Assembly: GCF_020510685.1 (NCBI RefSeq)
Contig: NZ_CP075185.1
Coordinates: 2,046,001-2,110,000, forward strand
Direction: 5' to 3'
Length of the DNA stretch: 64,000 nucleotides
Source of the DNA: Dechloromonas denitrificans
GTDB lineage: Bacteria > Pseudomonadota > Gammaproteobacteria > Burkholderiales > Rhodocyclaceae
Position numbers and translations under genes: made by a program. Below, one piece after another: positions 3,175 to 38,000 of this stretch. Under the pieces are notes generated by a model. The model saw only the letters and a list, made by a program, of their open reading frames with translations. It had not been told where the DNA came from and did not search any database. The stretch's first letter is position 1, and every line of letters starts with the position of its first letter.

Positions 3175-4179
3175 ATGATGAATTCCTATGCAATTCTTGG
3201 CGTTTCGCAAGATGCCTCCCTGGCGGATATAAAGCGCGCCTACCGCAGGCTCGCGATGCGCTGGCATCCGGACAGGAATACCGATCCCGATGCCACCGAA
3301 CGCTTCAAGCAGATCCGTGCTGCTTACGATTTGTTGCTGACGGCAGACCTTTCCGATGATGCCGACACTCCTCCGGACAACGATGTCGGGCCGGAAGCCG
3401 AGGAAAGCGTTGCGCGGGCCGCCGATATCCGTCTCAATCTGACGGTCAGTCTGGAGGAGGCCGCCGCCGGTTGCCGGAAGACCGTCGCTTATACCCGTGG
3501 CAAAGCCTGTCCGACCTGTGCTGGATCGGGCGAATCAGGCATGACGCGAACGCGCTTCTGCAAGGTTTGCCACGGTAGCGGCCGGGTCCATGGCGCCAAG
3601 CGCGAACTGGTGCCATGCACCGACTGTGGCGGACGCGGGTTTTTCAGCGAACGCATTTGTCCCGACTGCGCGGGAAGCGGCCGGGAAACTGCTAGCGTCA
3701 GTCTCGAAATTACCGTCCCGCGAGGCATGCTGCCCGGCGACGAACTGCGTCTGGCCGGGCAGGGCGAGGCGGCGTCGGAGGGGCTGCTGGCCGGTGATCT
3801 GTACCTGACCATCGTGATCGCTACGCATCCCCTGTTTGAACTGCATGGCCGGGATCTGCACTGCAGCATGCCGGTCAGTGCCCTGTTGATGCTGGCCGGC
3901 GGGGAAGTCGAACTGCCCTCGCTGGCCGGGGTGGTGAATCGTCTACTCGACGCCGGCCCGCCGGATGTCCGCGAGCTTCGGGTTTTCGGCAAGGGCTACC
4001 CGGGGCGGGGCAAGGTTCATGCTGGCGATCTGGTGGTCAAACTGACGCCGGTGTTCCCGAGCCGGTTCAATGCGCGGCAGCGCAAGCTGTTGCTGCAGGC
4101 CAATGCGGCTCTGATGGACAATCTGCCGGAGAGTTATCCGGAGATTGCCGCCTGGCAGGCAGCGAACGTTACGGAATAA
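3175..4179 (+). CDS. DnaJ-like co-chaperone with J domain and zinc finger
   Basis: A protein of about 334 residues. The J domain at residues 4-65 carries the HPD triad (WHPD near 34) that stimulates DnaK ATPase. It passes through a short acidic linker rather than a Gly/Phe-rich one, into a four-motif zinc finger: [24 protein letters not shown] and CPDCAGSG (about 112-170). A DnaJ C-terminal substrate-binding domain follows. It is shorter than canonical DnaJ (about 375 aa) and not next to dnaK, so it is probably a second, specialised type I/II-like co-chaperone. An upstream in-frame ATG at 3094 exists, but homology starts at the MM pair (3175/3178). Confidence 0.85.
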
Positions 4180-4251
4180 GCGCTTGCCGCTGATGGAGCG
4201 TGGCATGCAATTAATGGCCGGCGCGCTGGTCTGATTTACCAGGAGGTGAAC

Positions 4252-5148
4252 ATGGCGAGCAAAATCCGCATCATCGGCGCGGCCAGCGGTCTTGGCGCCC
4301 AGGACCAAGGCTGCGAGGACGGCCCGGTTGCCTTTCATCGATCGCAGGCCTGGCATGAACTGGAGCATCATCCGCGGGTCGATTGGGGGAGGACGCTGTT
4401 TGCCTCCGATGCCCCGGGGCTGTCGGAGTTCGGCCGGATTGCCGCCCTGTGTCGTTATCTGGCCGACGAGGTGGCGGTCGCCTTGCGGGCCGACGAGTTT
4501 CCTCTCGTCATCGGCGGCGACCACTCGGTGGCGATTGGGACCTGGAGCGGCGTGGCACGGTTTGTCGGAGCGCCGCCCGGCTTGCTCTGGATTGATGCCC
4601 ACCTCGATAGCCATACACCGGAAACGAGCTACTCGGGCGCCGTGCATGGCATGCCGCTGGCGTGTCTGCTCGGCCGGGGCGACAAGCGTTTGCTCAACAT
4701 CGGCCGGGTCGGTGAGCAAGTCAGCGCGGCGCATACGGTGGTGCTCGGGCCGCGCAGCTATGAGCCGGAAGAAATGGATTTTCTGCGCCAGATGGGCGTC
4801 CGGATTATCGACAGCGACGAGGTACAGGCCCGTGGTTTTGCCGCTTGCCTCGACGAAGCGATCGGCATCGTCGCCAAGGCGCCGGCCGGTTTCGGCGTGA
4901 CGCTCGATCTCGACGCCATTGACCCGGTGCTTGCCCCGGGGGTTGGCAGCCCCGAGCCGGAAGGTTTGTGGGATGGCGATGTGCTGGTGGCGATGCGCCG
5001 CCTGTCGGCGATGCCGGGCCTGCGTGCGGTGGAAATTGTCGAATACAACCCGGATCGCGACTGGCAGGGGACGACGGCGCGGCTGATCGCCGATCTGATC
5101 GGCCAAATACTGCCCGGGGTTACCGGGCGAGACCACGCTCAGGGCTGA
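4252..5148 (+). CDS. rocF: Arginase/agmatinase family hydrolase (arginase-like)
   Basis: The product (298 aa) belongs to the Mn-dependent ureohydrolase family, which hydrolyses arginine, agmatine or related guanidino compounds to urea plus amine. Visible metal-binding motifs are GGDHS (near 88), DAHLDSH (near 115) and LDLDAIDP (near 219), in the usual order and spacing. The length fits the family (about 300 aa). ATG at 4252 has an excellent AGGAGGT Shine-Dalgarno at 4241-4247. The gene stands alone between the DnaJ-like gene and a convergent unknown gene. The symbol is the best family guess; substrate (arginine versus agmatine or formiminoglutamate) cannot be settled from motifs. Confidence 0.8.
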   Translation: MASKIRIIGAASGLGAQDQGCEDGPVAFHRSQAWHELEHHPRVDWGRTLFASDAPGLSEFGRIAALCRYLADEVAVALRADEFPLVIGGDHSVAIGTWSGVARFVGAPPGLLWIDAHLDSHTPETSYSGAVHGMPLACLLGRGDKRLLNIGRVGEQVSAAHTVVLGPRSYEPEEMDFLRQMGVRIIDSDEVQARGFAACLDEAIGIVAKAPAGFGVTLDLDAIDPVLAPGVGSPEPEGLWDGDVLVAMRRLSAMPGLRAVEIVEYNPDRDWQGTTARLIADLIGQILPGVTGRDHAQG

Positions 5149-5681
5149 GGCTGGGGATTGAAGTTGTAGCGTTTGGGCAGGTCTGCTGCAACGATTGGCT
5201 GGATCGGCAGTTTGTGCCAATAAACATGCCCGGAACCACCACCGAGCAGCGCGAGGAAGTCCGCTTCGTCGGCCGGCTGCTCCTTGGCGGTCCTGCATTG
5301 ACCGAGAAAACCGGCCAGATCTCGGTCATCGAGCAGGCCGATACCCAGTGTGGTGTGCAGCAGGATGCTGCCTTCTTCATCGAGATAGACAGCCTCGACG
5401 CTGCCGGCGGGCTGGCCGGTGTGGCTGACGAAGGCATCGTCGGCGCTACGAAATACCCACGGCGTGCAAGCCAGGCTGACAAAAACCCGCTGCGGCCCGT
5501 TTTGCAGAAACCAGCAGCCTGATTCGTCACAACCGTACTGCCGGTTGATGAAGGCAATCAGGCCGCTGTGCGTCACGCGCTCCCCCTGCAAACGCCAGTC
5601 GCCGCGCCGGTCGAGCGACAGCCAGTCGTAACAGGCGGGGACGTTGGGCCACTTGGCGATGGCAGAGAGATCGACGGCCAT
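5139..5681 (-). CDS. Conserved protein of unknown function, coupled to gcvP
   Basis: A 180-residue protein rich in Trp, Cys and acidic residues, with no signal peptide or membrane segment seen. I do not recognise the family. The start ATG shares one base with the gcvP stop (TGATG), so it is the last gene of the gcvTHP operon and is translationally coupled. Its 3' end overlaps the convergent arginase-family gene by 10 bases. The position suggests, but does not prove, a role tied to glycine catabolism or simple read-through expression. Confidence 0.75.
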   Translation of the reverse strand: MAVDLSAIAKWPNVPACYDWLSLDRRGDWRLQGERVTHSGLIAFINRQYGCDESGCWFLQNGPQRVFVSLACTPWVFRSADDAFVSHTGQPAGSVEAVYLDEEGSILLHTTLGIGLLDDRDLAGFLGQCRTAKEQPADEADFLALLGGGSGHVYWHKLPIQPIVAADLPKRYNFNPQPQP

Positions 5682-8560
5682 CAGTCGGCGTACGCTGACA
5701 TCGGCGGGCAGGCGCAGTTCAGGTTGCGGTCGCCAAACACATCGTCGATGCGATTGACGCTCGGCCAGAACTTGTTGGCCGCCACCCAGGGCAGCGGGAA
5801 GACCGCCTGTTCGCGGCTGTACGGATGCGGCCAGGCGGCATCGACGACATCGGCCAGGCTATGCGGCGCATGCTTCAGCGGATTGTTGTCGGGCGTCCAG
5901 ACGCCGTTTTCGATCTGGCGGATTTCCTCGCGAATGCTGACCATGGCGGCGATGAAGCGATCCAGTTCGGTTTTCGATTCCGACTCGGTCGGTTCGACCA
6001 TCATCGTACCGGCCACCGGAAAGCTGACGGTCGGGGCGTGGAAGCCGTAGTCCATCAGGCGCTTGGCGATATCGGTTTCGCTGATGCCGGTGACGGCCTT
6101 GAGCGGGCGGATGTCAAGGATGCATTCATGGGCGACGCGGCCGTTCTTGCCGAAATAGAGCACCGGATAGTGGTCGTTGAGCTGTCGGGCGACATAGTTG
6201 GCGTTCAGGATGGCGACTTGCGTTGCCTTCTTGACGCCGCTGCCGCCAAGCATGGCCAGGTACATCCAGGAGATGGTCAGGATTGAGGCCGAGCCGAACG
6301 GCGCGGCGGAAACCGCGCCCTGTCCGGCGTGCGGGCCGTCGATCGTGGCTACCGCGTGGTTGGCCATGAACGGCGCCAGGTGCGCCTTCAGGCCGATCGG
6401 GCCCATGCCCGGGCCGCCACCGCCGTGCGGGATGGCGAAGGTCTTGTGCAGGTTCATGTGGCTGACGTCGGCGCCGATGAAGCCGGGCGAAGTCAGGCCG
6501 ACCTGGGCATTGAGGTTGGCACCGTCCATGTACACCTGGCCGCCATTGGCATGGACGATGGCACAGATGTCGCGGATGGCTTCCTCGAAGACGCCGTGCG
6601 TGGACGGGTAGGTGATCATCAGGCAGGCTAGGTCGGCAGCATGTTGCTCGGCCTTGGCCTGCAGGTCGGCGACATCGACGTTGCCGTGCTCGTCGCAATC
6701 GACGACGACGACCTGCATGCCGGCCATCTGGGCGGTTGCCGGATTGGTGCCGTGCGCCGATTTCGGGATCAGGCAGACCTTGCGCTGCGCTTCGCCGCGG
6801 CTGGCGTGGTAGCGGGCAATCGAGACCAGGCCGGCGTATTCGCCCTGGGCGCCGGAGTTCGGTTGCATGCAGATGGCGTCGAAGCCGGTCACCGTCTTCA
6901 GCCATTCGGTCAGGCCGGCAATCATTTCCTGATAGCCCGCCGTCTGCTCGCGCGGCGCGAACGGATGCAGGCCGCCGAATTCCGGCCAGGTGACCGGAAT
7001 CATCTCGCTGGTCGCATTCAGCTTCATGGTGCAGGAGCCGAGCGAGATCATCGAGTGGTCGAGCGCCAGGTCCTTGTTCTGCAGCGATTTCAGGTAGCGC
7101 AGCATCTCGTGTTCGGTGTGGTGCGTGTTGAACACCGGGTGCGGCAGGATGGCGTCGCTGCGCAACAGCGTACTCGACAACACCGGGTCGGCGGCAACCT
7201 GAGCGTCGATGGCATCCACGTCAAGCGTAACCTGGGTGATCAGCTTGAACAGCGTGGCGAGATCGTGGCGGGTGGTCGTTTCGTCCAGCGCAATGCCGAG
7301 CACGCCGGCCGAAACGCGGCGCAGGTTGTAGCCGGCGCCCGAGGTGTCGCGGTAAATGCTTTCGGCGCGGGCGCCGAGGTCGAAGTGCACGGTGTCGAAG
7401 AACTGTTTGGTCAGCACGTTGATGCCGGCGCGTTTCAGGCCGGCGGCAAGGATCGCGGTCAGCCGGTGAATGCGGCTGGCGATGGTCTTCAGGCCTCGCG
7501 GGCCATGATAGACGGCGTACATGCCAGCCATGTTGGCCAACAGTACCTGCGAGGTACAGATGTTCGAGTTGGCCTTCTCGCGGCGAATGTGCTGTTCGCG
7601 GGTTTGCAGCGCCATGCGCAGCGCGGTGTTGCCGCGGGCATCCTTCGAGACACCGATGATGCGGCCCGGCATCGACCGGACAAAGGCTTCGCGGGTGGCG
7701 AAGAAGGCAGCGTGCGGGCCGCCAAAACCCATCGGGATGCCGAAGCGCTGGCTGGAGCCGAGCGCGATGTCGGCACCCATCGCGCCAGGCGACTTGAGCA
7801 GGACCAGTGCCATCAGGTCGGTAGCGACGGCAACGGTCGCCCCCGTGGCCTTGAGGCCGGCAATGGTGGCCGTCAGGTCGCGGACTTCGCCGTTGTCGTT
7901 CGGGTATTGGAGCAGGGCGCCGAAGAATTCTTCGTCCTTTACCGTGTCGAGCGCGGCAATCACCAGTTCGAAACCGAAATAGCCGGCGCGTGTTTTGACG
8001 ACATCGATGGTCTGCGGGAAGCAGGCAGCATCGACCAGGAAACGGTTGGATTTCGATTTGGAAACCCGGCGCGCCATGGTCATCGCCTCGGCGGCGGCGG
8101 TCGCTTCGTCGAGCAGGGAGGCGTTGGCGATTTCCAGCCCGGTCAGGTCAATGACCATCTGCTGGAAATTGAGCAGCGCTTCCAGCCGACCCTGGGCGAT
8201 TTCCGCCTGGTAGGGGGTGTAGGCGGTGTACCAGCCCGGGTTTTCCAGCACGTTGCGCAGGATCACCGTGGGCGTCAGTGTGTCGTAATAGCCCATGCCG
8301 ATACAGGACTTGTTGATGACGTTCTTGCCGGCGATGGCTTTCAGCGTCGCCAGTGCGTCGTGCTCGCGTTGCGGGGCGGGCAGCGGCAGGTCGGCCGGCA
8401 GGCGGATGGCGGCGGGCACCGTCTGATTGATCAGTTGATCAAGGCTGTCGGCGCCGATGGCGGCGAGCATGGCAGCCACTTCAGTCGGGCACGGGCCAAT
8501 GTGACGGGCGATGAACTCGTCACGCTGCTCCAGGGCGGAGAGCGGTTGATTGAGCGGCAT
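5681..8560 (-). CDS. gcvP: Glycine dehydrogenase (decarboxylating), P-protein of glycine cleavage system
   Basis: A full-length fused P-protein of 959 aa, the one-polypeptide form. It decarboxylates glycine with pyridoxal phosphate and passes the aminomethyl group to lipoyl-GcvH. The PLP lysine lies in [16 protein letters not shown] (near residue 704). I chose ATG at 8560 (MPLNQPL...), where the family homology begins; a longer frame opens at 8638 but would overlap gcvH. The gene follows gcvH by 13 bases in the riboswitch-controlled operon gcvT-gcvH-gcvP-unknown. Confidence 0.97.
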
Positions 8561-27567: not shown

Positions 27568-29349
27568 GTGCTGACGACGTCGATTGCCGCCGACCAGTTG
27601 GTCGAGGTGCTGCAGGCCAGCCGCGTGTTTGGCATGCTCGAAATGCCTGTTCTGCAAGATCTGGCCGGCGAGCTGGAACTCACCTCGGTGAGAGGGGGGG
27701 ATCTCGTTCAGCACGAGGGTGATACCGCTGAAAGCATGTTGATACTGGTCAGTGGCCGGCTGCGTGTGTCACGGCGAAATGCCGATGGTTCGCTTCTTCT
27801 GTATAACGAAATTTGCCCGGGCGAATCCGTCGGCGAAACCGGCATGGTCCTGCAACAATCGCGTTTTGCCGATGTGACGGCGGTTCGCGACTCGACCATT
27901 GCCTTGCTGCGGCGCGAGTCTTTTGAAGTGCTCCTGCGCCGCCACCCGGTGGCCTTGAATCGCGTTTTTGCTCAGGCCGTCTATCAGCAACTGCGGCATG
28001 CCCCGCAGCTGGTCGAACAACGTCGAGCCCATACCTTCGTCGTCGTTCCGCTCCACGACCGTCGCCTGGGGGCTGAAGTGGCGGCCGGTCTGGCCGAGGC
28101 GCTCGGAGCGATCGGGCGGACCGAGAAAGTGCGCGAGGCAGCGCTCGATTTGCCGCACTTTGATGATCTGGAGAGCCGCTTCGAATATCTCGTGCTGGAA
28201 ACCGACGAAACGAACTCGGAGCGCACGCACCGGGCTGTTCGCCAGGCCGACCAGGTGGTCTTTGTTGCGGCGGAAGGGGAGTCTCCCGGGTTGTCCGGGG
28301 TCGAGCGCGGTCTCTCAAGCGAGGCCGGCTTTGTCATGAAGCGCAAGCATCTGGTGCTGCTGCACAAGGCGCTGGGCGAGCATCCAGGCGATATGCCAGC
28401 CTGGCAAAGAGGGCGGGAGATTGAACGGGTTTATCCGGTGCGCGCTGGCCGGCAACGCGACTATGCCCGTCTGGCGCGCTTTCTGACCGGTACTGCCGTC
28501 GGCGTGGTGCTTGGCGGTGGCGGGGCGCGCGGCTTTTCGCATCTTGGCGTTCTGCGGGCACTTGAGGAAAACGCCATCCCGGTCGACCTGATCGGTGGCA
28601 ACAGCATGGGTGCCTTGATTGGAGCGCAATACGCCAGTGGTGTGCCGATTGACGAAATCCGTCAGCGGACGGAACGCTTTGCCTTGGGTGGTGAGCGGCC
28701 AACCCTGCCGTTGATTTCGCTGCTGTCCGGCAAGCGCCTCGAACGCGATCTGCGCAGGATGTTCGGCGAAACCTGCATCGAACAACTGTGGCGCCCCTTC
28801 TTTGCCGCTGCCTGCAATCTCAGTCAGGTGTGTACCACGGTGCAGGATAGTGGTCCGATTTGGCGGGCCGTACTGGCCAGCAACTCGCCGGCCGGGCTGC
28901 TGCCGCCCGTGGTTTACAAAGGCGATCTGCTGGTCGACGGGGCGATTCTCGATAACGTGCCGGTCAGTGCCATGCGCGGGCGCCTCGGTACGCCGCTCGA
29001 ACAGCGCCGGGGGAACGGGACGGTGATCGCCGTCGACGTCGATGTTCGCGAGAATATGTGTGTCCATCCGGAAACCGTGCGGCTGTCCGTCTGGCGGACC
29101 CTCAAGGGATATTTGCGCTCGGCCGGTGACGGCTCCCCATCGATTGCGTCGATCCTCTATCGGGCCGGCCACATCGGCGGCATGCACCAGCGTGCACGGA
29201 CCATGGCCCTGGCGGATTACTGCCTGGAGCCGCCGGTCGCCGATTTTCCGCTGATGGCCTACCGTCGGTCGGACGAAATTGTCGAGGCCGGTTATCGTTA
29301 TGCACAGGAAGAAATATCCCGATGGACCGATCCGTTGCTTCGGCCCTAG
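27568..29349 (+). CDS. Cyclic nucleotide-binding domain/patatin-like phospholipase (NTE/RssA family)
   Basis: A protein of about 593 aa. An N-terminal cNMP-binding domain (about 15-135, with PGESVGETGMVL) precedes a linker and a patatin lipase domain. That domain has the oxyanion-hole motif GGGGARG (near 317), the nucleophile-elbow motif GNSMG (Ser near 347) and the catalytic Asp in DGAILDNVP (near 457). Relatives (NTE, YlbK/RssA) are serine lysophospholipases, sometimes regulated by cyclic nucleotides. Start is uncertain: GTG at 27568 is the best. It overlaps the NRPS start by 28 bases, so the two are probably co-translated. Confidence 0.85.
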   Translation: MLTTSIAADQLVEVLQASRVFGMLEMPVLQDLAGELELTSVRGGDLVQHEGDTAESMLILVSGRLRVSRRNADGSLLLYNEICPGESVGETGMVLQQSRFADVTAVRDSTIALLRRESFEVLLRRHPVALNRVFAQAVYQQLRHAPQLVEQRRAHTFVVVPLHDRRLGAEVAAGLAEALGAIGRTEKVREAALDLPHFDDLESRFEYLVLETDETNSERTHRAVRQADQVVFVAAEGESPGLSGVERGLSSEAGFVMKRKHLVLLHKALGEHPGDMPAWQRGREIERVYPVRAGRQRDYARLARFLTGTAVGVVLGGGGARGFSHLGVLRALEENAIPVDLIGGNSMGALIGAQYASGVPIDEIRQRTERFALGGERPTLPLISLLSGKRLERDLRRMFGETCIEQLWRPFFAAACNLSQVCTTVQDSGPIWRAVLASNSPAGLLPPVVYKGDLLVDGAILDNVPVSAMRGRLGTPLEQRRGNGTVIAVDVDVRENMCVHPETVRLSVWRTLKGYLRSAGDGSPSIASILYRAGHIGGMHQRARTMALADYCLEPPVADFPLMAYRRSDEIVEAGYRYAQEEISRWTDPLLRP

Positions 29350-32300
29350 AGCCAGAGCTTCTTCCGCTCTCGCTGAGCCAGCAGGAAGTGTGGCTGGATC
29401 AGCGCGCCTGGCCGGGAAGCACCCATCTCAACATCGGTGGGGCAGGGTATATCGACGGTCCGTTTGACCTCGCTTTGTTCCACCAGGCGCTGACTCAGCT
29501 GGTTGCCGAAAACGAGGCTTTGCGTCTGGTCCCGCTTCTTGAGGGCGGGCAGAGGCTGCTCCCGGCCTACGATGCGCCGTTGCTGCTGGTCGATGTTTCG
29601 ACGGCGGAGAATCCACTGGCCGCCATGCGCGTCTGGTGGCAGGACTGGATGGCCGAGCCCTTCGTTTTTGATGGCAACCCGCCCTGGCGTTTTGCTCTGC
29701 TGCGTCATAGCGATACCTTGCACGGACTGACCATCCAGTTTCACCACCTGATCATGGATGGCTGGGGAACTTCGCAGGTAATGCAGCGTTGGGCCACCCT
29801 GTACAACGTGCTGGCCGGTTCGGAAGCGCGACGGCCGACCTGCGATCCGGGTTATCGCCAGTTTGTCGCGGATTCGCTGGAGTACCGGCATTCGCCGAGC
29901 TTTGCCAAAGACGCGGAGTTCTGGCAGCAGCAGCTACCGGTGTTGCCACCGCCGCTATTCGAGCGGCGCTATGCGATCGAATCATCAGAAAGCTTGCCGG
30001 CCGCGCATCTTATTACCCAGAATCTGCCCCGGGCCGACTATGACCACCTGGCTTCGTTTGCCGCGGGGCTCGGCGTAACACTTTTTGGTTATCTGGTCGG
30101 CGTTCTCGCCGCCTATTTTGCCCGGGCTTATGGCCGCGACGAGGTGGTGATCGGCTTGCCGAGCCTGAATCGTTCCGGAAAACGCTATCGCGAAACCTTC
30201 GGCATGTTCGTCGGCGTCTTTCCGCTGGTCGTCAAGGTGTCGCCAGGCATCACCGTGCGTGAGCTGCTTGGGTCGGTGAATCTTGCCTTGAAGGCAGCCG
30301 TGCGCCGCCAGCGCTATCCGGTCAGCGAACTCGCCCGGCATCTGGCGGCTATTCGGCACCGACGCGACAGCGTTTTCGATGTTCTCTTTTCCTACGAGCG
30401 CCAGGACTACGATCTGAATTTCGGTGCAGGTCGCTCGTTCGGATCGCGGCAAATATTCTCCGGTTTGGCGCGCTATCCGCTGGGCATTACCTTGTGCGAA
30501 TTTCAGTCGGTACAGGATGTGGAACTGACCCTGGAGGCAAGCCCTGCTTGTTTTTCCGCGGCTGAAGTCCGCTATCTCGGACAACGTATCGCTCATCTGA
30601 TGCAGGGCATGGCGGCGCATCCCGATCAGTGTGTCGAAGACCTCGATCTACTCCCTCCGGCTGAATTTGCCGCACTGACCCAGGCGCTGAGTACGGCGCA
30701 AGCATCACCGGAGCCCTATATCTGTCAGTTTCAGCGCCAGGCGGAAATCACCCCCAACGCCAGTGCGGTAGTCTGGGATGGCGGCAGTCTTGACTACGCG
30801 GCGCTCGATGCCTGGTCTGGCTATCTCGCTGATCAGTTAGTCAGTCTCGAAGCCGGCAAGAGGGGCATCGTGGCGCTGGTCATGGAGCGTTCACCGGAGA
30901 TGCTGGCCGCCATGCTGGCCATCAACAAGGTCGGTGCCGCCTTTCTGCCGCTGGACCCGGATGCGCCGCTGGCCCGTTTGCAAGGTATCGTCGACGAAAG
31001 CGGCGCGCTGGCCGTGCTGGTGCAACCGGCCCAACGCGAACGGTTTTCCGCGCTGCAGGCAAAACTGTTCACCGTTTTTCCCGAGCCGGCCAGTCGGGCG
31101 TCCCTGAATGCTCTGCCTCAGCCCACGCCGGGTGATCTCGCCTATGTCTTATTCACCTCGGGGTCGACCGGGCAGCCGAAGGGCGTCATGGTCGAGCATG
31201 CTGCGCTGAGTTCCCGGCTGGCCTGGATTTCCCGCGCTTACAGCGTCGTGCCATCGGATCGGACAGGGCAGTGCACCCAGGCGACTTTCGATCCTTCGCT
31301 GATCGAGCTGTTTCTGCCGTTAATCAATGGGGCCAGCGTTGCCTTGCCGCCAGCCGGCCGGCTTTCACCGCGTTCGCTCGGCCCCTTTGCCGTCCGCCAT
31401 GCGGTGACCATCATGGCCTTGGTGCCGTCTACGCTACGTGGTCTTCTCGATTCGGTTCCCGATTTCTCGGCCTTGAAACTGCGCGTCGCGTGCTGTGGTG
31501 GCGAGGTCTTGCCGGTCGAACTGGCCAATCGTTTCATTGACCAGACCGGGGCGCGCCTGTTCAATGTCTACGGCCCCACCGAAGCAACGATCTTCGCCTC
31601 CGCCTGGGAATGTCAAAAACAATCGACCGATGCAAGCCTGCCGATTGGGCGGGCAATTGATGGCTCGCGAATCTACATACTCGACAGCCGCGGTGCCTTG
31701 CTGCCCTTCGGTATTCCCGGAGAGGTCTATCTCGCCGGAGCGGCAATTGCCAGGGGATACATCAACCGCCCTGAGCTGGATCGTGAAGCCTTCTTTGCCG
31801 ATCCATTCGTTCCCGGTCAACGCATGTACCGGACCGGTGATCGTGGCTGGCTGGCGACCGATGGCAATCTGTATTTCCTTGGTCGCCTTGATCGCCAAAT
31901 CAAACTGCGTGGTTACCGTATCGAGCAAGGGGAAATCGAGGCCACGCTGCTCGCTGTCGATGGCGTTCAGCAGGCAGCGATCAAATTGCTCGAACGGCAC
32001 GGCAAGCCGGCCATTTACGCCTGGGTCGCCGGCTCGCCACAGTTGTCGGCAAGCCGCATTCGCCAATACCTTGCATGTCGCCTGCCCGACTACATGCTGC
32101 CGGCTGGGATCTCCCGCCTGCCAGAATTGCCGGTCAACGGTACGGGAAAAATCGCCTATGACCGCTTGCCTGAGCCGGAGGCCGAGGTTCCTGTGGCTTC
32201 TTCGAGGCTCCCGGCGAACGACATGGAGCGCGCGCTCCTCGCGCTATGGCAGGTCGTCTTGAAGCGGGATGGCTTCGGAGTCACCGACAACTTCTTCGAT

Positions 32301-33164
32301 GTCGGCGGTGACTCTCTGGCGGCGGTCGACATCCTGGTTGGGGTGGAAACCTTGGTCGGTCGCAGCGTTCCGCTCTTTATCCTGACCGAAAACCCTTCGG
32401 TCGAACAACTTGCGCTGGCGCTTGGCCAAGGCAAAGGCCAGAGGCTGACCAGTGACGTCATGTTGCACCTTGGCCGGAGTCAGGGGAAAACCCCCCTATA
32501 TTTTGCCGCCTCCGGGCATGGCGACCTGATCCGTTTCCGGAATCTTGCCGATGTCTTGGGCGAGCACTGTGACCTGTACATGCTGCAACCGCCGACTGGC
32601 CGGCCAGTGCTGAGTATTTCCGGACTGGCTCGAGATTACGCTGAGCGCATCCTGGCGCATGGCCGACCGGGCGTGCTGGCCGGGTTTTCGGTCGGTGGCA
32701 TTGCCGCCCTGGAGACAGCACGGCATCTGCAGGCACTTGGCTTTCCCGTTCCCCGGCTTTGTCTGGTCGATACGGTATATCCCGGGCGCTTACTGCGCAG
32801 TGCCATTTTCTGGAAGTCGCTCGGCTGGTTGGCCCGACACATGAATGCGCATGAACTGAGTATGAATGGTCGCCATCTCGGCGCCTTGTTCAGCGACCCG
32901 GGACTGATTGCCCAGATCAATGCCATGGCCGATTATCGGCTCGACAGCTACAGCGGGGCGGTGAGCCTTATCAAGTCGTCAGGTCTTGTGCGATGGGAGC
33001 GCTGGGTGTTTCAACCTTGGCGAAAACAGATGGAACAGCCGCTTGATGAAATACTGATTGAGGGCTTGCATGGGTCGATTTTCGAGCGGGACAACATACA
33101 GAGCCTGGCTCGCGCGCTGCTCGATTTGCCGGAGTTTAACCACCCGGAGGTGGTCAAAACTTGA
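29322..33164 (+). CDS. Single-module non-ribosomal peptide synthetase (C-A-PCP-TE)
   Basis: 1280 aa. A condensation domain (about 10-430) has the catalytic HHLIMDG at about 141. An adenylation domain (about 450-960) shows LFTSGSTGQPKG (near 608), YGPTEATI (near 749), YRTGDRG, RQIKLRGYRIE (near 855) and NGTGKIAYDRLPEP (near 938). A carrier domain has GGDSL with the phosphopantetheine Ser (near 996). A C-terminal thioesterase (about 1040-1270) has GFSVGG (near 1120). It could couple one activated amino acid to an acyl or amine acceptor and release it. No 4'-phosphopantetheinyl transferase is nearby. It lies between the patatin-like lipase and a TVP38 protein and shares short overlaps with both. 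Confidence 0.93.
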   Translation: MDRSVASALEPELLPLSLSQQEVWLDQRAWPGSTHLNIGGAGYIDGPFDLALFHQALTQLVAENEALRLVPLLEGGQRLLPAYDAPLLLVDVSTAENPLAAMRVWWQDWMAEPFVFDGNPPWRFALLRHSDTLHGLTIQFHHLIMDGWGTSQVMQRWATLYNVLAGSEARRPTCDPGYRQFVADSLEYRHSPSFAKDAEFWQQQLPVLPPPLFERRYAIESSESLPAAHLITQNLPRADYDHLASFAAGLGVTLFGYLVGVLAAYFARAYGRDEVVIGLPSLNRSGKRYRETFGMFVGVFPLVVKVSPGITVRELLGSVNLALKAAVRRQRYPVSELARHLAAIRHRRDSVFDVLFSYERQDYDLNFGAGRSFGSRQIFSGLARYPLGITLCEFQSVQDVELTLEASPACFSAAEVRYLGQRIAHLMQGMAAHPDQCVEDLDLLPPAEFAALTQALSTAQASPEPYICQFQRQAEITPNASAVVWDGGSLDYAALDAWSGYLADQLVSLEAGKRGIVALVMERSPEMLAAMLAINKVGAAFLPLDPDAPLARLQGIVDESGALAVLVQPAQRERFSALQAKLFTVFPEPASRASLNALPQPTPGDLAYVLFTSGSTGQPKGVMVEHAALSSRLAWISRAYSVVPSDRTGQCTQATFDPSLIELFLPLINGASVALPPAGRLSPRSLGPFAVRHAVTIMALVPSTLRGLLDSVPDFSALKLRVACCGGEVLPVELANRFIDQTGARLFNVYGPTEATIFASAWECQKQSTDASLPIGRAIDGSRIYILDSRGALLPFGIPGEVYLAGAAIARGYINRPELDREAFFADPFVPGQRMYRTGDRGWLATDGNLYFLGRLDRQIKLRGYRIEQGEIEATLLAVDGVQQAAIKLLERHGKPAIYAWVAGSPQLSASRIRQYLACRLPDYMLPAGISRLPELPVNGTGKIAYDRLPEPEAEVPVASSRLPANDMERALLALWQVVLKRDGFGVTDNFFDVGGDSLAAVDILVGVETLVGRSVPLFILTENPSVEQLALALGQGKGQRLTSDVMLHLGRSQGKTPLYFAASGHGDLIRFRNLADVLGEHCDLYMLQPPTGRPVLSISGLARDYAERILAHGRPGVLAGFSVGGIAALETARHLQALGFPVPRLCLVDTVYPGRLLRSAIFWKSLGWLARHMNAHELSMNGRHLGALFSDPGLIAQINAMADYRLDSYSGAVSLIKSSGLVRWERWVFQPWRKQMEQPLDEILIEGLHGSIFERDNIQSLARALLDLPEFNHPEVVKT

Positions 33165-33898
33165 GCGATAGGCCGGTTATTACCCCTCATGGCCGGCATC
33201 GGCAGCGTGCTCTGCTATTGCTGTCGCTTATTCTTGGACTACTTGGCTTGGCCATCGCGTGGCGTTGGAGTTCGCTCCATGCATTTCTTGATCCGGACAA
33301 ACTGATCGGTTTGCTACGAGTCTCCGGAGTACTTCAGAATCCGCTGGTCGCCATCGGTGCGGTAGTCTTCGCCAGCATAATTGCGATTCCGCTGGCGGTC
33401 ATAATTGTTGTCGGCGCGTTAATCTTCGGGCCGATCCTTGGGCCGGTTTACGTGCTGTCAGGCGCTGAGATCGGGGCGGTCATCAGCTTTGTCTTGGGCA
33501 AGTACCTTGGTCATGACGCGCTCCGGCTATTGGCCGGAGAAAAGGCCAGAAAACTCAGCGAAAATCTGGGGCGTAGTGGTGTCATAACGGTAATCGTCAT
33601 CCGCTTGATTCCCGCAGCACCATTTGCCGTTGCCAATATGATCATCGGCTCATCGCATGTTCGAATGCGCGATTTCTTGCTCGGGACGATTGTCGGGATG
33701 ATTCCAGGGGTTCTGGCGATCACGCTATTTGTTGATCAGATTGTTGCCGTCTTTCGTTCTCCCGGGTGGCAGTCAATTGTACTGACTGTTGCAATATTGA
33801 TAATCATCTTGGGCGGTGCATATGGCCTTCGCCGATGGCTCGAAAAATCGGGAAAGCCTGCTGCGACGGGCAAAGACGGGGATGTCAGTGAACGATGA
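33161..33898 (+). CDS. TVP38/TMEM64 (SNARE-associated/DedA-like) family membrane protein
   Basis: A 245-aa integral membrane protein with about five to six hydrophobic segments. The family core FGPILGPVYVLSGAEIGAVISFVLGKYLG and VIRLIPAAPFAVANMIIG is present. DedA/TVP38 proteins are implicated in lipid or undecaprenyl phosphate translocation. It starts four bases before the NRPS stop (TTGA overlap, TTG start) and so is coupled to it. Co-expression suggests it moves the NRPS product or a lipid carrier; that is inference. Confidence 0.85.
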   Translation: MSDRPVITPHGRHRQRALLLLSLILGLLGLAIAWRWSSLHAFLDPDKLIGLLRVSGVLQNPLVAIGAVVFASIIAIPLAVIIVVGALIFGPILGPVYVLSGAEIGAVISFVLGKYLGHDALRLLAGEKARKLSENLGRSGVITVIVIRLIPAAPFAVANMIIGSSHVRMRDFLLGTIVGMIPGVLAITLFVDQIVAVFRSPGWQSIVLTVAILIIILGGAYGLRRWLEKSGKPAATGKDGDVSER

Positions 33899-34183: not shown

Positions 34184-34882
34184 ATGAACGATAAAGAAAA
34201 TTTGGCTGCGACAAACGATGCTTCCGTTGAGCCGCAAATTCAGCCAAGTGAGGAACGTGTCGCTCATTCTCGTCGCCGCCTGTTCCGCCAAGGAGCTTCT
34301 GTCGTTGCCGTGACACTGGCCAGTCGCCCAGTGCTGGCATGGCACTGCAAGTCGCCGTCGGCGTGGGGTTCTGAGCAGATCAATCCGAACACGAGCTTGA
34401 GTACCAATGCCGGACACAATTCATATACGGATGAGACTTGGACTATCTCGAACTGGGTGAGCAATACCGCACGAAACAATTTTGGTCAGCCGTGGGTGAA
34501 ACTGAAGGAAAAATTCCCTTTGCTCCTCGATAAGTCCACAAAGACCAGCGGAAGTTTTGATTACAAGAAAGTAACGGTAAAGAAGCTTTTTGACACCGTT
34601 ACCGGCTTGGGCAGGCCAACAGGACTGAACGACACAGCCATGGTTAAGGATATTTTGTCCATGGGGTCCGATCTGCAAAAATACACGATCGTTGCGCAGT
34701 TGAACTACATCCTGCTTGCCCCGCTGAGTTCCCCCAACAATCTCGACAGTTGTGTGACACTTTTAGACCTTCGGCAGATGGCATCTGGTTCCTATTCGCC
34801 ACCCAATATGCCAAATGTCACTTGGGGGGCGCAGTCTATCGTGGACTATCTGTATAACAACTGGATTGTCAGGCCGTCATAA
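34184..34882 (+). CDS. Tat-signal secreted protein of unknown function in HprK-related cluster
   Basis: 232 aa; I do not recognise the family. Residues about 28-54 form a twin-arginine type signal: SRRRLFR followed by a hydrophobic stretch ending in RPVLA, with likely cleavage before WHCKS. The mature part is about 180 aa, rich in Ser, Thr, Asn and Trp, with no PEP-CTERM tail and no obvious catalytic motif. GC is visibly lower than in the flanking housekeeping genes. It lies 17 bases ahead of the PqqD-like gene and may be the cargo or product-binding partner of that cassette. Confidence 0.7.
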   Translation: MNDKENLAATNDASVEPQIQPSEERVAHSRRRLFRQGASVVAVTLASRPVLAWHCKSPSAWGSEQINPNTSLSTNAGHNSYTDETWTISNWVSNTARNNFGQPWVKLKEKFPLLLDKSTKTSGSFDYKKVTVKKLFDTVTGLGRPTGLNDTAMVKDILSMGSDLQKYTIVAQLNYILLAPLSSPNNLDSCVTLLDLRQMASGSYSPPNMPNVTWGAQSIVDYLYNNWIVRPS

Positions 34883-34899
34883 GTAGTCTTGAGCCGGCT

Positions 34900-35205
34900 T
34901 TGAACAAGCGTGTAGCTTTGCCTGCGCAGTTCTCGTTGCGAGATACCGATCTGATCTTCCGAGTCTTTTCCGGCGAAGAACTTGTCACCGTATACGATGC
35001 TCGAAATGGGGATACCCATCTGCTAGGCGAGGTGGCTTATGAGTTATGCCAATTTTTAGCTGATTCGCCTGCGACGGCGGATGAATTAAAGCGCCGCATG
35101 CTGCTGAACTTTCCCGAAGATGATCCGGACCTGATTACGGATGGCGTTGATGCCGCGCTCATGCAGCTTGAAGGCGCCGGTTTTATTTTTGCTGCGGCTA
35201 ATTGA
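34900..35205 (+). CDS. PqqD-like protein of HprK-related-A system
   Basis: A 101-aa protein with a PqqD/winged-helix-like pattern: LVTVYDARNGDTHLLGEVAYELCQFL, then LITDGVDAALMQLEGAGFI. PqqD proteins bind precursor peptides for modifying enzymes. Haft-type family models describe a PqqD-like chaperone that travels with an HprK-related kinase (HPr-rel-A system), and I assign it by that context. Start is TTG at 34900; no ATG fits. The stop overlaps the kinase start (TTGA). Confidence 0.75.
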   Translation: MNKRVALPAQFSLRDTDLIFRVFSGEELVTVYDARNGDTHLLGEVAYELCQFLADSPATADELKRRMLLNFPEDDPDLITDGVDAALMQLEGAGFIFAAAN

Positions 35206-36128
35206 GAGTTTCCGAGTTTTCCAGAAATGCAGTGTTCGACCGTCTTAAAGATGGTGATCTGCTGATTGATATGCACCCGTTCAAGGTCCGGGTGCGTTCT
35301 GATATTCCAAGTTTGGCGGACGATATTTGTCGTGTTTACCGAGATTTTCCGCTAGCCGACCCGGATGGTTTTTCCGATTTTCACGTTGAAGTTTCCTATG
35401 AACGAGGGTTTCGCCGCTGGATAAAGCCGCTCGCGCGGTTTTATTTCGACGGTCGGCCTTCGTTTATTCCACTGCCGGCTCATCAGGCTTTCCCTATGTT
35501 GGAATGGGGAATCAATTGGTGTGTCGCAGCGCATAGTCACCAATACTTGATCATTCATGCCGCAGTGATCGAGCAAGGGGGGCGAGCGCTGATTCTGCCG
35601 GCACCGCCAGGCTCCGGTAAGAGCACCTTGTGTGCGGCAATGATCAATCGCGGCTGGCGGTTGCTGTCGGATGAACTGGCTCTTTACGATGTCGAGCAGA
35701 AACTGATTTATGGCATGGCCCGCCCGGTCAATTTAAAGAACCGGTCCATCGAGGTTATTCAGGGATATTCACCGGATACGGTAATGACTTCTCCTGTGCC
35801 GGACACGACCAAAGGTACCGTGGCGCTGATGAGGCCACCGGAGGAGAGTGTTCGGCGTGTTGCCGAGCCTGCTCTCCCGGCTTGGATAGTCCTGCCGCAC
35901 TACCAGGCTGACTCGGAGCCACTCCTTGAGAAGTACTCCAAGGCAAGAACATTCATGCTGATTGCTGATCAGTCGTTCAATTACAACGTTCATGGTCGTT
36001 CCGGATTTGATGCTGTTGGTGACCTTGTCGAGCAGTGCTCATGTTATCAATTTACCTACAGCCGTCTGAGCGATGCCGAAGGCATCTTCACGGATTTGCT
36101 TGCTGGGGCAGGCAATGCACCCAACTGA
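35202..36128 (+). CDS. HprK-related kinase A
   Basis: 308 aa. The C-terminal two thirds resemble HPr(Ser) kinase: a Walker A loop PAPPGSGKST at about 131-139, then LLSDELALYD, which resembles the HprK SDD region. It lacks the N-terminal domain of true HprK, and there is no HPr gene nearby, so its target is not HPr by default. Start is TTG at 35202 within the stop of the PqqD-like gene. Members co-occur with a PqqD-like protein and a nucleotidyltransferase. The substrate is unknown; phosphorylation of a peptide or small molecule is inferred. Confidence 0.8.
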   Translation: MRVSEFSRNAVFDRLKDGDLLIDMHPFKVRVRSDIPSLADDICRVYRDFPLADPDGFSDFHVEVSYERGFRRWIKPLARFYFDGRPSFIPLPAHQAFPMLEWGINWCVAAHSHQYLIIHAAVIEQGGRALILPAPPGSGKSTLCAAMINRGWRLLSDELALYDVEQKLIYGMARPVNLKNRSIEVIQGYSPDTVMTSPVPDTTKGTVALMRPPEESVRRVAEPALPAWIVLPHYQADSEPLLEKYSKARTFMLIADQSFNYNVHGRSGFDAVGDLVEQCSCYQFTYSRLSDAEGIFTDLLAGAGNAPN

Positions 36129-37221
36129 TCTTGTCGTGCGGGCTCTGCACCAGCCTCCCGTAACGGCATCTCTCGATACGGCACAGTGGGATTTGTTGAT
36201 ACGCCAGGCGCGCCGGGCCAATTTGCTCGGCAAACTGGCTTTTCACCTCTTGCCCGAAAGTCTGGCGCTCGTGCCAAAATCGCCGCAAGCGCATCTCGTT
36301 TCCGCATTAAAGATGGCTGACCGCCAGGATCTGGCTATTCGCTGGGAGGTCTCATGTATCTCGGAGGCCTTGCTGGGTAGTGGCGTGAAAGTCATTTTGC
36401 TCAAGGGCGCTGCCTATGTCATGGCTGGTTTGCCGACATCACGCGGACGCACGTTCTCGGATGTGGACATTCTGGTTCCCAAGGAGCGGATCTGCGAAGT
36501 TGAAAGTGCCTTGATGATTCACGGCTGGCAGGGCTCGCATCACGACCAGTACGATCAGCGCTATTACCGGGAATGGATGCATGAAATCCCCCCCATGCTA
36601 CATGTCCGGCGAGGAACGAATATCGACGTTCATCACACAATCCTGCCGGAAACAGCCCGCATCAAGGTCAATACCGCCGCACTTCTTGAAGACCCCCTGC
36701 CGATCGCCGGATTCGACAATATCTTTGTGCTTAAACCTGTCGACATGGTGCTACATAGTGCAACCCATCTTTTCCACGAGGGCGAACTCGATAACGGATT
36801 GCGCGATCTTTTCGATCTTGATTCTATGTTCCGTCATTTTGGTGACAAAGATGGTTTCTGGAGCAAGCTGTTGCCGAGAGCCAGAGAGCTCGGTTTGGAA
36901 CGTCCGCTCTACTATGCCGTCTTTTTTTCAGCGAAAATTCTCGATACGCCGTTTCCCGAAACGCTAGTTCGAGAGATCGAGTCGATCTCTCCACCTAAAG
37001 TGGTTATGTGGTTGATGCGGCTGTGCTATACGAGGGTTTTGCGTCCGAATCATGCAAGTTGCGATAGCCGAGGGAGTTGGTTGGCAAGAAAAGCGCTTTA
37101 TATCCGTTCGCACTGGATCCGGATGCCAATTTTTATGTTGACCCGCCATTTGGCGCACAAGGCAATGACCCGACCGGGAAAAAACGATGCCGAGGTTTCC
37201 GTCGAGCGCCAACCAGTGTAG
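36115..37221 (+). CDS. Nucleotidyltransferase family protein of HprK-related-A system
   Basis: A protein of about 368 aa with an uncharacterised nucleotidyltransferase fold: VILLKGAAY, then RTFSDVDILVP with the metal-binding D-x-D (near 120-125), and a helical C-terminal half rich in His. I chose ATG at 36115, which overlaps the kinase stop by 14 bases; a longer frame from 36073 is unlikely. It completes the PqqD-kinase-nucleotidyltransferase set. Nucleotidyl transfer to a small molecule, peptide or protein is possible; the target is unknown. Its stop lies 11 bases from the convergent protease gene. Confidence 0.8.
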   Translation: MHPTDLVVRALHQPPVTASLDTAQWDLLIRQARRANLLGKLAFHLLPESLALVPKSPQAHLVSALKMADRQDLAIRWEVSCISEALLGSGVKVILLKGAAYVMAGLPTSRGRTFSDVDILVPKERICEVESALMIHGWQGSHHDQYDQRYYREWMHEIPPMLHVRRGTNIDVHHTILPETARIKVNTAALLEDPLPIAGFDNIFVLKPVDMVLHSATHLFHEGELDNGLRDLFDLDSMFRHFGDKDGFWSKLLPRARELGLERPLYYAVFFSAKILDTPFPETLVREIESISPPKVVMWLMRLCYTRVLRPNHASCDSRGSWLARKALYIRSHWIRMPIFMLTRHLAHKAMTRPGKNDAEVSVERQPV

Positions 37222-37232
37222 TCGATGTATTC

Positions 37233-38000
37233 CTAAGGTATATCGACGATGCTTTTCAAGAAGTTTGCAGGAATCGCATAGCTGATTCCCGATGGTTGGC
37301 TCAAGGCAGTTTCCTTGCTACCTTTGATGAAAACCATATTGATGATCCCGATCACGTCACCACTTTCCGTGTCAAAGACCGGGCTGCCGCTGTTTCCGGG
37401 ATAAGCCGTGGCATCCAGTTGAAAAATGTTGAAGGTTCCGCCCTTGATGCGACGGATCACTTTTTCATTTAGTTGCTGGGCAGTCGCACCGGGCAGGGCG
37501 ATTGGGGTTATTGAGGAAATCATGCCGCGATGGGTGACCGGTGAAAAGCCCAAGGCACCCCCGATCGGAAAACCGGTAAATCCGACCGACAGGCCCTCGC
37601 GCACCAAGTCCGAGTTGCCCAGTTTAAGTGCCGGTAGGGCCGTCCCTTCAATACGCAGGACTGCCAGATCGTGTTCTTTATCGCGGGTGGCGAGATAAGC
37701 GCGCCTAACCTGCGACTCTCCGCTGAGGTTGCGTGTCTGAATGACCAGAACCGGAGCATCCGGTTCTAGGGTGTCCGGAACGACGTGTGAGTTTGTCGCA
37801 ACCAGATTTCCATTGCCGATCACGAACCCCGTACCGCGCAAGACAAACGGTGGACTATTTGTTTTTTTGTAAGTCCCGACAACGACAATCGAAGGTTTGA
37901 CGCGCTCAATGGTATCGGCCAGTTCGGCAACTGCTTCAGTTGCCAGACATAATCCAAGGGCGGCAAAAAGCCATCCGCTAAAACATTTACTGGTCCTCAC
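37233..38000 (-). CDS. Secreted trypsin-like serine protease (S1C, DegP-like without PDZ)
   Basis: 255 aa. A Sec signal peptide (about 1-25, ending TEAVA) is followed by a protease domain with the His in ATNSHVV, Asp in KEHDLAVL and Ser in GNSGSPVFD. DegP/DegS relatives usually carry one or two PDZ domains; none is present here. Start is GTG at 38000, overlapping the transglycosylase stop (GTGA), so the two are coupled. A periplasmic role linked to wall or exopolysaccharide secretion is inferred. Confidence 0.85.
   Translation of the reverse strand: MRTSKCFSGWLFAALGLCLATEAVAELADTIERVKPSIVVVGTYKKTNSPPFVLRGTGFVIGNGNLVATNSHVVPDTLEPDAPVLVIQTRNLSGESQVRRAYLATRDKEHDLAVLRIEGTALPALKLGNSDLVREGLSVGFTGFPIGGALGFSPVTHRGMISSITPIALPGATAQQLNEKVIRRIKGGTFNIFQLDATAYPGNSGSPVFDTESGDVIGIINMVFIKGSKETALSQPSGISYAIPANFLKSIVDIP

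Follow-up and report, generated by a model that had tools for sequence, protein, structure and literature searches.

A conserved HprK-related kinase cassette of Dechloromonas denitrificans and its probable substrate, a Tat-exported protein

What might a kinase, a PqqD-like protein and a nucleotidyltransferase act on when the gene ahead of theirs encodes a protein with an export signal? A 64,000-nt stretch of Dechloromonas denitrificans DNA (contig NZ_CP075185.1, positions 2,046,001 to 2,110,000; the window) raises this question with four genes at positions 34184–37221. An initial annotation of the window had proposed a system that modifies a peptide or small molecule and acts on, or alongside, the exported protein. 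We find that the four genes are a conserved unit and that they probably constitute a cassette of the kind that serves ribosomally synthesized and post-translationally modified peptides (RiPPs). Guided by a RiPP recognition element (RRE), the kinase and the transferase would decorate a serine in the tail of the exported protein, which would then leave by twin-arginine translocation (Tat). The components are:

34184..34882, + strand: exported protein with a Tat signal, 232 aa, ATG start, no named family; proposed substrate (precursor)
34271..34276, + strand: codons of the twin arginines R30-R31 of the Tat signal, near-invariant in homologues
34340..34402, + strand: tail behind the signal, residues 53-73, with the candidate acceptors S59 (34358-34360) and S63 (34370-34372)
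34900..35205, + strand: PqqD-like protein, 101 aa, TTG start, TIGR04353; predicted RRE
35202..36128, + strand: HprK-related kinase A, 308 aa, TTG start, TIGR04352
36115..37221, + strand: NTP_transf_5 nucleotidyltransferase, PF14907, ATG at 36115; the longest reading frame starts at ATG 36073

Open reading frames (ORFs) for all four genes lie where the initial annotation placed them and bear out the tight packing, the overlaps among the last three genes and the two TTG starts that it described. The gap between the exported-protein gene and the PqqD-like gene is 17 nt. The PqqD-like and kinase genes overlap by 4 nt (TTGA), and a kinase orthologue (L003) likewise starts at TTG in a 4-nt overlap. 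The kinase and transferase genes overlap by 14 nt with the in-frame ATG at 36115 and by 56 nt with the ATG at 36073.

The four genes stay together well beyond this genome. Searching species genomes with the kinase yielded 84 relatives, and the loci of the top 80 make up sample 1; among the named hosts are Dechloromonas, Rhodocyclus, Nitrotoga, Thiobacillus, Undibacterium, Azoarcus, Ectothiorhodospira and Malonomonas. Because these loci were picked by their likeness to the window kinase, we drew a second sample of 369 genomes spread evenly over the host's class. A kinase above the TIGR04352 cut-off is encoded in 41 of them, and the 40 besides the window's own form sample 2, which shares two loci with sample 1 (L094 = L034, L120 = L075). 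The transferase is present in 80/80 and 40/40 loci, in one case (L123) as a fragment at a contig end. A PqqD-like ORF is detectable in 76/80 sample 1 loci (exceptions L006, L073, L077 and L081; in L082 it does not lie immediately ahead of the kinase) and in 39/40 sample 2 loci (not L130), plus the window's own. A Tat-type protein is encoded ahead of the kinase in 79/80 sample 1 loci, the exception being L006, and upstream in 38/40 sample 2 loci (E <= 0.01), which with the window makes 39 of 41 kinase genomes. Thus, the two associations on which the initial annotation had staked its proposal, that of the exported protein with the cassette and that of the kinase and transferase with a PqqD-like gene, both hold, and the arrangement is kept far beyond chance.

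The link is also visible from the side of the exported protein. Each matching locus holds one match to the exported-protein model (39/39, among 2901 ORFs), and all 29 genome-wide matches of at least 75 bits adjoin such a kinase; since the model derives from proteins encoded next to the kinase, distant unlinked relatives could escape it. It matches 53 of the 369 genomes. Kinase-adjacent proteins account for 35, the C-terminal domain alone for kinase genome G015 and four others (G080, G084, G099 and G215), and short Tat peptides for six. The remaining seven, at 19.8-22.1 bits, look fortuitous and were rejected. One genome (G296) has a second, unlinked match of 71.5 bits (L171). Across 121 neighborhoods (80 + 40 + window, flanks of up to 8 kb) no fifth gene is nearly as frequent as the four; the biggest remaining neighbor families reach 24-27 loci, one of them apparently an antisense artefact. 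The clustering would miss rapidly evolving small genes, and it divides even the PqqD-like and kinase families.

The exported protein itself, described initially as a twin-arginine protein of unknown family, retains that description: R30-R31 are in place, and it matches nothing in the Pfam or NCBIfam libraries, including any Tat-signal hidden Markov model. None of the 120 listed among its 144 sequence homologues has a Pfam domain, and the named ones are called 'hypothetical protein'. In the 79 sample 1 homologues with a model match, 44 of which also went into building the model, R31 is found in 79/79 and R30 in 78/79. With RR at the signal start and tatC encoded in its own genome, the protein has the sequence features of a Tat substrate.

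Two serines behind the signal are conserved just as strictly. Positions 59 and 63 are S in 79/79 sample 1 homologues. Among 70 aligned close homologues the invariant residues include R31, C55, S59, A60, W61, G62, S63 and S71; across 45 diverse members the sole invariant columns are M1, R31, S59 and S63, so that only the two serines are left after the signal. In the more diverged sample 2, scored on the top match to the model per locus, each position is S in 29/38 proteins and both are in 28/38. The AlphaFold model is of low confidence as far as residue ~80 and then shows a confident helical domain, for which no similar PDB structure was found. Judged by the low predicted local distance difference test (pLDDT) scores there, S59 and S63 look to sit on a flexible tail right behind the signal. 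In the wider family, larger proteins can end in the same C-terminal part (model positions ~70-180). Five such proteins (L173-L177) lack a Tat start, and some carry further domain modules (DUF11/DUF7507 in L174, DUF7507 in L177 and DUF7467 in L173). Six sample 2 loci (L114, L116, L125, L127, L128 and L129) form a subtype with TLHSG-like leaders and a divergent transferase gene upstream of the Tat protein.

The PqqD-like protein is the predicted link between this substrate and the enzymes. It scores 52.4 bits against TIGR04353 (cut-off 35) and falls just below the cut-off of Pfam PqqD (22.3 versus 23.4 bits). Its predicted fold (pLDDT 89.8) is a PqqD-type winged helix-turn-helix of three strands and three helices, as in RREs. 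The best PDB matches of the model in Foldseek are lasso B1-leader complexes (5v1v, 5v1u and 6jx3), with PqqD (5sxy) among the next; matches to the TbiB1, TfuB1 and PqqD chains have probability 1.00 and template modeling (TM) scores of 0.58-0.73. A sequence profile also finds TbiB1 as the best PDB match (E 0.0087), with PbaB1 (9x90, E 0.22) and TfuB1 (E 0.30) further down amid unrelated proteins. On this model, the protein is a predicted RRE, a leader-binding adaptor.

The kinase matches TIGR04352, HprK-related kinase, with 399.9 bits (cut-off 200), so that it and the PqqD-like protein both exceed the cut-offs of the NCBIfam 'HPr-rel-A system' (TIGR04352 + TIGR04353). H119, the P-loop residues K140/S141, D157 and E158 are invariant in 81/81 kinases. 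Paeninodin kinases require a His-Lys-Asp-Asp set (PMC9266682); if the residues correspond, the fourth of these would be Glu in the window kinase. The transferase matches PF14907 with 198 bits (cut-off 31.2), and its K96-G97, R111, D115 and D117 (numbered from codon 36118) are invariant in 81/81.

The same enzyme types serve known phosphorylated peptides. The closest parallel are the linear polyphosphorylated peptides (LPP) of Bacillota, reported in 2026, whose clusters encode LppA, LppB, LppK, LppN, LppS and LppD (PMC13381572). As described there, LppA is the precursor, LppB an RRE, LppK an HprK-like kinase and LppN an NTP transferase, and LppK adds several phosphates to Ser3 of the core, immediately after the leader (PMC13381572). 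Both systems thus combine a discrete RRE, assigned by predicted fold in the window, with an HprK-like kinase and an NTP transferase. The LPP acceptor serine stands right behind the leader, as the invariant serines of the window protein stand right behind the signal, and LPP clusters, too, are often found in polysaccharide loci (PMC13381572). The likeness of LppN, LppK and PsmN (below) to the window proteins is drawn here at the level of enzyme type. LPP systems differ in using a SipW-like peptidase and an MsbA-like exporter where the window protein has a Tat signal, in the YxxP motif of their leaders, which the window leader lacks, and in their product, unlike the ~180-residue mature protein expected here. 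Scans of window ORFs, covering the ten around the cassette and some of the others, show neither such a peptidase nor such an exporter, and inspection by eye recognized neither in the 30 commonest neighbor families of the 121 loci, as would be expected if signal peptidase and Tat took over their roles. The main text of the LPP report contains none of the terms Tat, twin-arginine, Proteobacteria or Pseudomonadota (PMC13381572).

Lasso peptides offer a second parallel. In paeninodin (PadeK) and pseudomycoidin (PsmK/PsmN), an HprK-like kinase phosphorylates a precursor serine, and PsmN, annotated as a nucleotidyltransferase, is needed for the addition of one or two hexoses to the phosphoserine (PMC9266682, PMC8498205). 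Phosphorylated lasso clusters share with the window cassette the RRE (B1), the HprK-like kinase and a nucleotidyltransferase homologue; their acceptor is the C-terminal serine, whereas the proposed acceptors S59/S63 lie just behind the signal. They also need a macrolactam cyclase (C) and a B2 leader peptidase, neither of which is present in the window ORFs scanned or was recognized by eye in the 30 commonest neighbor families. By the features compared (YxxP leader; own peptidase, exporter and cyclase), the window cassette belongs to neither the LPP nor the lasso clusters. By analogy, it may instead be a Gram-negative, Tat-exported cousin that works like LPP- or paeninodin-type phosphorylation. 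The NCBIfam 'HPr-rel-A system' names only the kinase and a PqqD family peptide chaperone, the exported protein being outside any named family, and literature searches under the HPr-rel-A family names found no paper in the collection searched. The RREs of the DUF2063 family and their DUF2282 precursors work with a multinuclear non-heme iron-dependent oxidative enzyme (MNIO), unlike the kinase and nucleotidyltransferase here. These RRE-served precursors also start with an export signal, of Sec type rather than the Tat type of the window protein (PMC12710340).

From the three enzyme types shared with LPP and the invariant serines behind the signal, we infer that a serine is phosphorylated under the guidance of the RRE and that a transferase step comes next. 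The PqqD-like adaptor would recognize the exported protein by its signal region and deliver this precursor to the HprK-related kinase. The kinase would then attach at least one phosphate to a serine of the short disordered tail, S59 and/or S63, and the PF14907 transferase would add a nucleotidyl or glycosyl group to the tail phosphate. Export via Tat would follow modification, because modification needs cytoplasmic ATP/NTP. Tat translocates folded, pre-modified proteins. Cleavage of the signal would expose the decorated N-terminal tail outside the cytoplasm. Of the two options in the initial annotation, a system that acts on the exported protein is thus the one favored by the RRE-like fold and the invariant tail serines.

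A related short variant suggests how the adaptor may find its substrate. Weak matches to the exported-protein model are peptides of 57-90 aa, several of them less than 1 kb from more distant HprK-like kinases; the exported-peptide ORFs of this variant are mostly 57-107 aa. Fourteen aligned peptides share SRRxFxKK-x-AYxAPVxLTLxAxPxxAxxGS, in which RR, Y17, P20, G35 and S36 are invariant and Gly-Ser follows soon after the signal. Lasso and LPP RREs bind the motif [Y/W]xxPx[LVIFA] (PMC13381572), and YxAP followed by V, I or A fits it inside the Tat signal in 14/14 short peptides. When the 369 genomes were searched with the peptides, 25 gave matches, 11 of these genomes at >= 40 bits (23 matches); several weaker matches are long-type proteins. 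Further peptides (L180, L182, L187 and L190-L197) have Y, W or once F at the motif's Y position. The transferases of short-variant loci are PF14907 in 4/4 scanned (L165, L172, L182 and L195). The best NCBIfam match of the PqqD-like protein is the lasso PqqD chaperone in 7/10 scanned loci (L161, L165, L184-L187 and L195) and PQQ_PqqD in 3/10 (L172, L178 and L181), all below cut-off; that of L162 has a lasso-type best match, too. In these peptides, the sequences suggest well that the signal is the leader, and the peptides are probably an unnamed precursor class in Proteobacteria. For the window protein, we infer the same double role. More generally, and tentatively, the Tat signal may double as a RiPP leader, such that RRE binding presents the precursor to the enzymes and delays Tat until the serine is decorated, in substrates from ~57-residue YxxP peptides to ~230-residue folded proteins; these would form a secreted, serine-phosphate-linked (nucleotidyl/glycosyl) family in Proteobacteria, perhaps for surface-polysaccharide attachment.

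Several observations weigh against the proposed modification cassette. The weakest part is the transferase step, since the published LPP host showed no visible change when lppN was deleted (PMC13381572). The window protein has no YxxP, and the long family does not keep the motif. In 65 of the 74 long leaders scored (of 78) the c-region has P, S or G 20 or 21 residues after RR, so that they share the register of the short variant but not its Y, and P occupies the YxxP position in only 10/74, so that no RRE-binding site can be read from the motif in the long proteins. No Foldseek match of the PqqD-like model reaches E <= 0.001, the values ranging from ~3e-3 to 6e-2 (best 3.1e-3). Ten of the 38 sample 2 proteins lack an aligned S at one or both positions. 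Serines are nearby in two of these (L106 and L113), apparently shifted by the alignment; by eye, the other eight (L101, L103, L114, L116, L122, L125, L128 and L129) are short or diverged proteins with the signal TLHSG or similar and have a serine a few residues from the expected cleavage site. Five of the 38 Tat matches are weak (16-23 bits; L101, L116, L125, L128 and L129), that of L127 is marginal (13.9 bits), and L121, whose contig begins 567 bases before the kinase, has none. A stricter genome-wide scan finds the neighboring exported protein in 35/41 kinase genomes. In 6/40 sample 2 loci the transferase gene is divergent and lies ahead of the Tat-protein gene on the opposite strand, and L006 has the kinase and transferase without a PqqD-like gene or Tat protein. 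In the short variant, the fetched stretches hold no peptide beside kinases L184, L185, L186, L188 and L189 or beside the more distant kinases L178, L179, L181 and L183, and peptides occur in stretches without a kinase (L166-L169, L191-L194 and L196).

The enzymes might alternatively build a small molecule or nucleotide-type cofactor, with the exported protein a mere carrier and the serines structural or ligand-binding. HprK-like and nucleotidyltransferase folds can use small molecules, Tat exports folded cofactor proteins, and the helical domain without a PDB match could hold a ligand site. However, the presence of a discrete RRE-like protein argues for a peptide as substrate, the invariant serines belong to the low-confidence tail outside the fold, and peptides of mostly 57-107 aa leave little space for a cofactor domain. 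We regard this alternative as unlikely.

A further alternative ties the cassette to its neighbors in the window, with the exported-protein association secondary. The cassette is flanked by galE, patatin, non-ribosomal peptide synthetase (NRPS) and VTT genes and by an XrtA-type set (prsT, prsR, prsK and epsB-like), so that it lies between the NRPS and XrtA-type polysaccharide genes, whose nearness the initial annotation had noted; LPP and paeninodin clusters, moreover, are often located in capsule loci (PMC13381572). Across the 121 neighborhoods, however, XrtA-type genes flank only a minority of loci, with a PrsT-like family in 11/121 and a response-regulator family in 25/121, and the NRPS family falls outside the 30 commonest neighbor families, which places it in nine loci or fewer. 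A link to the NRPS is not supported, the four genes stay together whatever the neighbors, and membership in an XrtA exopolysaccharide or NRPS pathway is improbable. By eye, many Thiobacillus loci adjoin hemA-prfA-prmC-like genes. The window NRPS (29322-33164) is a single module of condensation, adenylation, carrier and thioesterase domains, and the VTT-domain membrane protein next to it ends at 33898, 285 nt before the exported-protein gene; downstream of the cassette, an ORF at 37233-38000 runs on the opposite strand.

Least probable of all is a regulatory role in the manner of HPr kinase, in which the kinase would reversibly modify targets in the cytosol and the transferase would be another regulator or part of a toxin-antitoxin-like pair: the kinase is related to HPr kinase over the P-loop region (1jb1, a weak alignment at E 0.013), but it scores 15.7 bits against a cut-off of 240 for the HPr kinase/phosphorylase family TIGR00679, the Tat protein is linked nearly as tightly as the transferase, an RRE-like protein is present, and the relatives of known function, PadeK and LppK, modify ribosomal precursors (PMC9266682, PMC13381572).

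With decoration of the Tat protein as the preferred reading, an orphan but common enzyme set (41/369 sampled genomes) gains a candidate substrate and a testable acceptor site. If true, the RRE-guided phosphorylation of serines that lasso peptides and Bacillota LPPs undergo would extend to whole folded proteins, and the requirement for cytoplasmic nucleotides would give the use of Tat a built-in reason. The short variant would show one sequence stretch as both enzyme leader and export signal. The cassette would also bear on what such nucleotidyltransferases attach, a question left open in the lasso-peptide review (PMC9266682).

Tat-signal short peptides with YxxP (or WxxP, once FxxP) inside the signal were seen in L161-L169, L172, L180, L182, L187 and L190-L197; most have Gly-Ser soon after the motif, and many are encoded beside HprK-like kinase, PqqD-like or PF14907 genes. 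In L183, an ORF at 3643-4359 that overlaps an HprK-like kinase ORF encodes a PqqD domain (PF05402, 42.9 bits) behind an N-terminal stretch that by eye is like a SipW/S26-type signal peptidase and has no Pfam match at E <= 0.01; it is possibly an LPP-like system outside Bacillota. In L180, the N-terminal half of an HprK-like kinase ORF (4635-5828) has no match to the PqqD-like model and resembles a fused PqqD domain by eye; such a fusion, if real, would support the PqqD-like protein and the kinase acting together.

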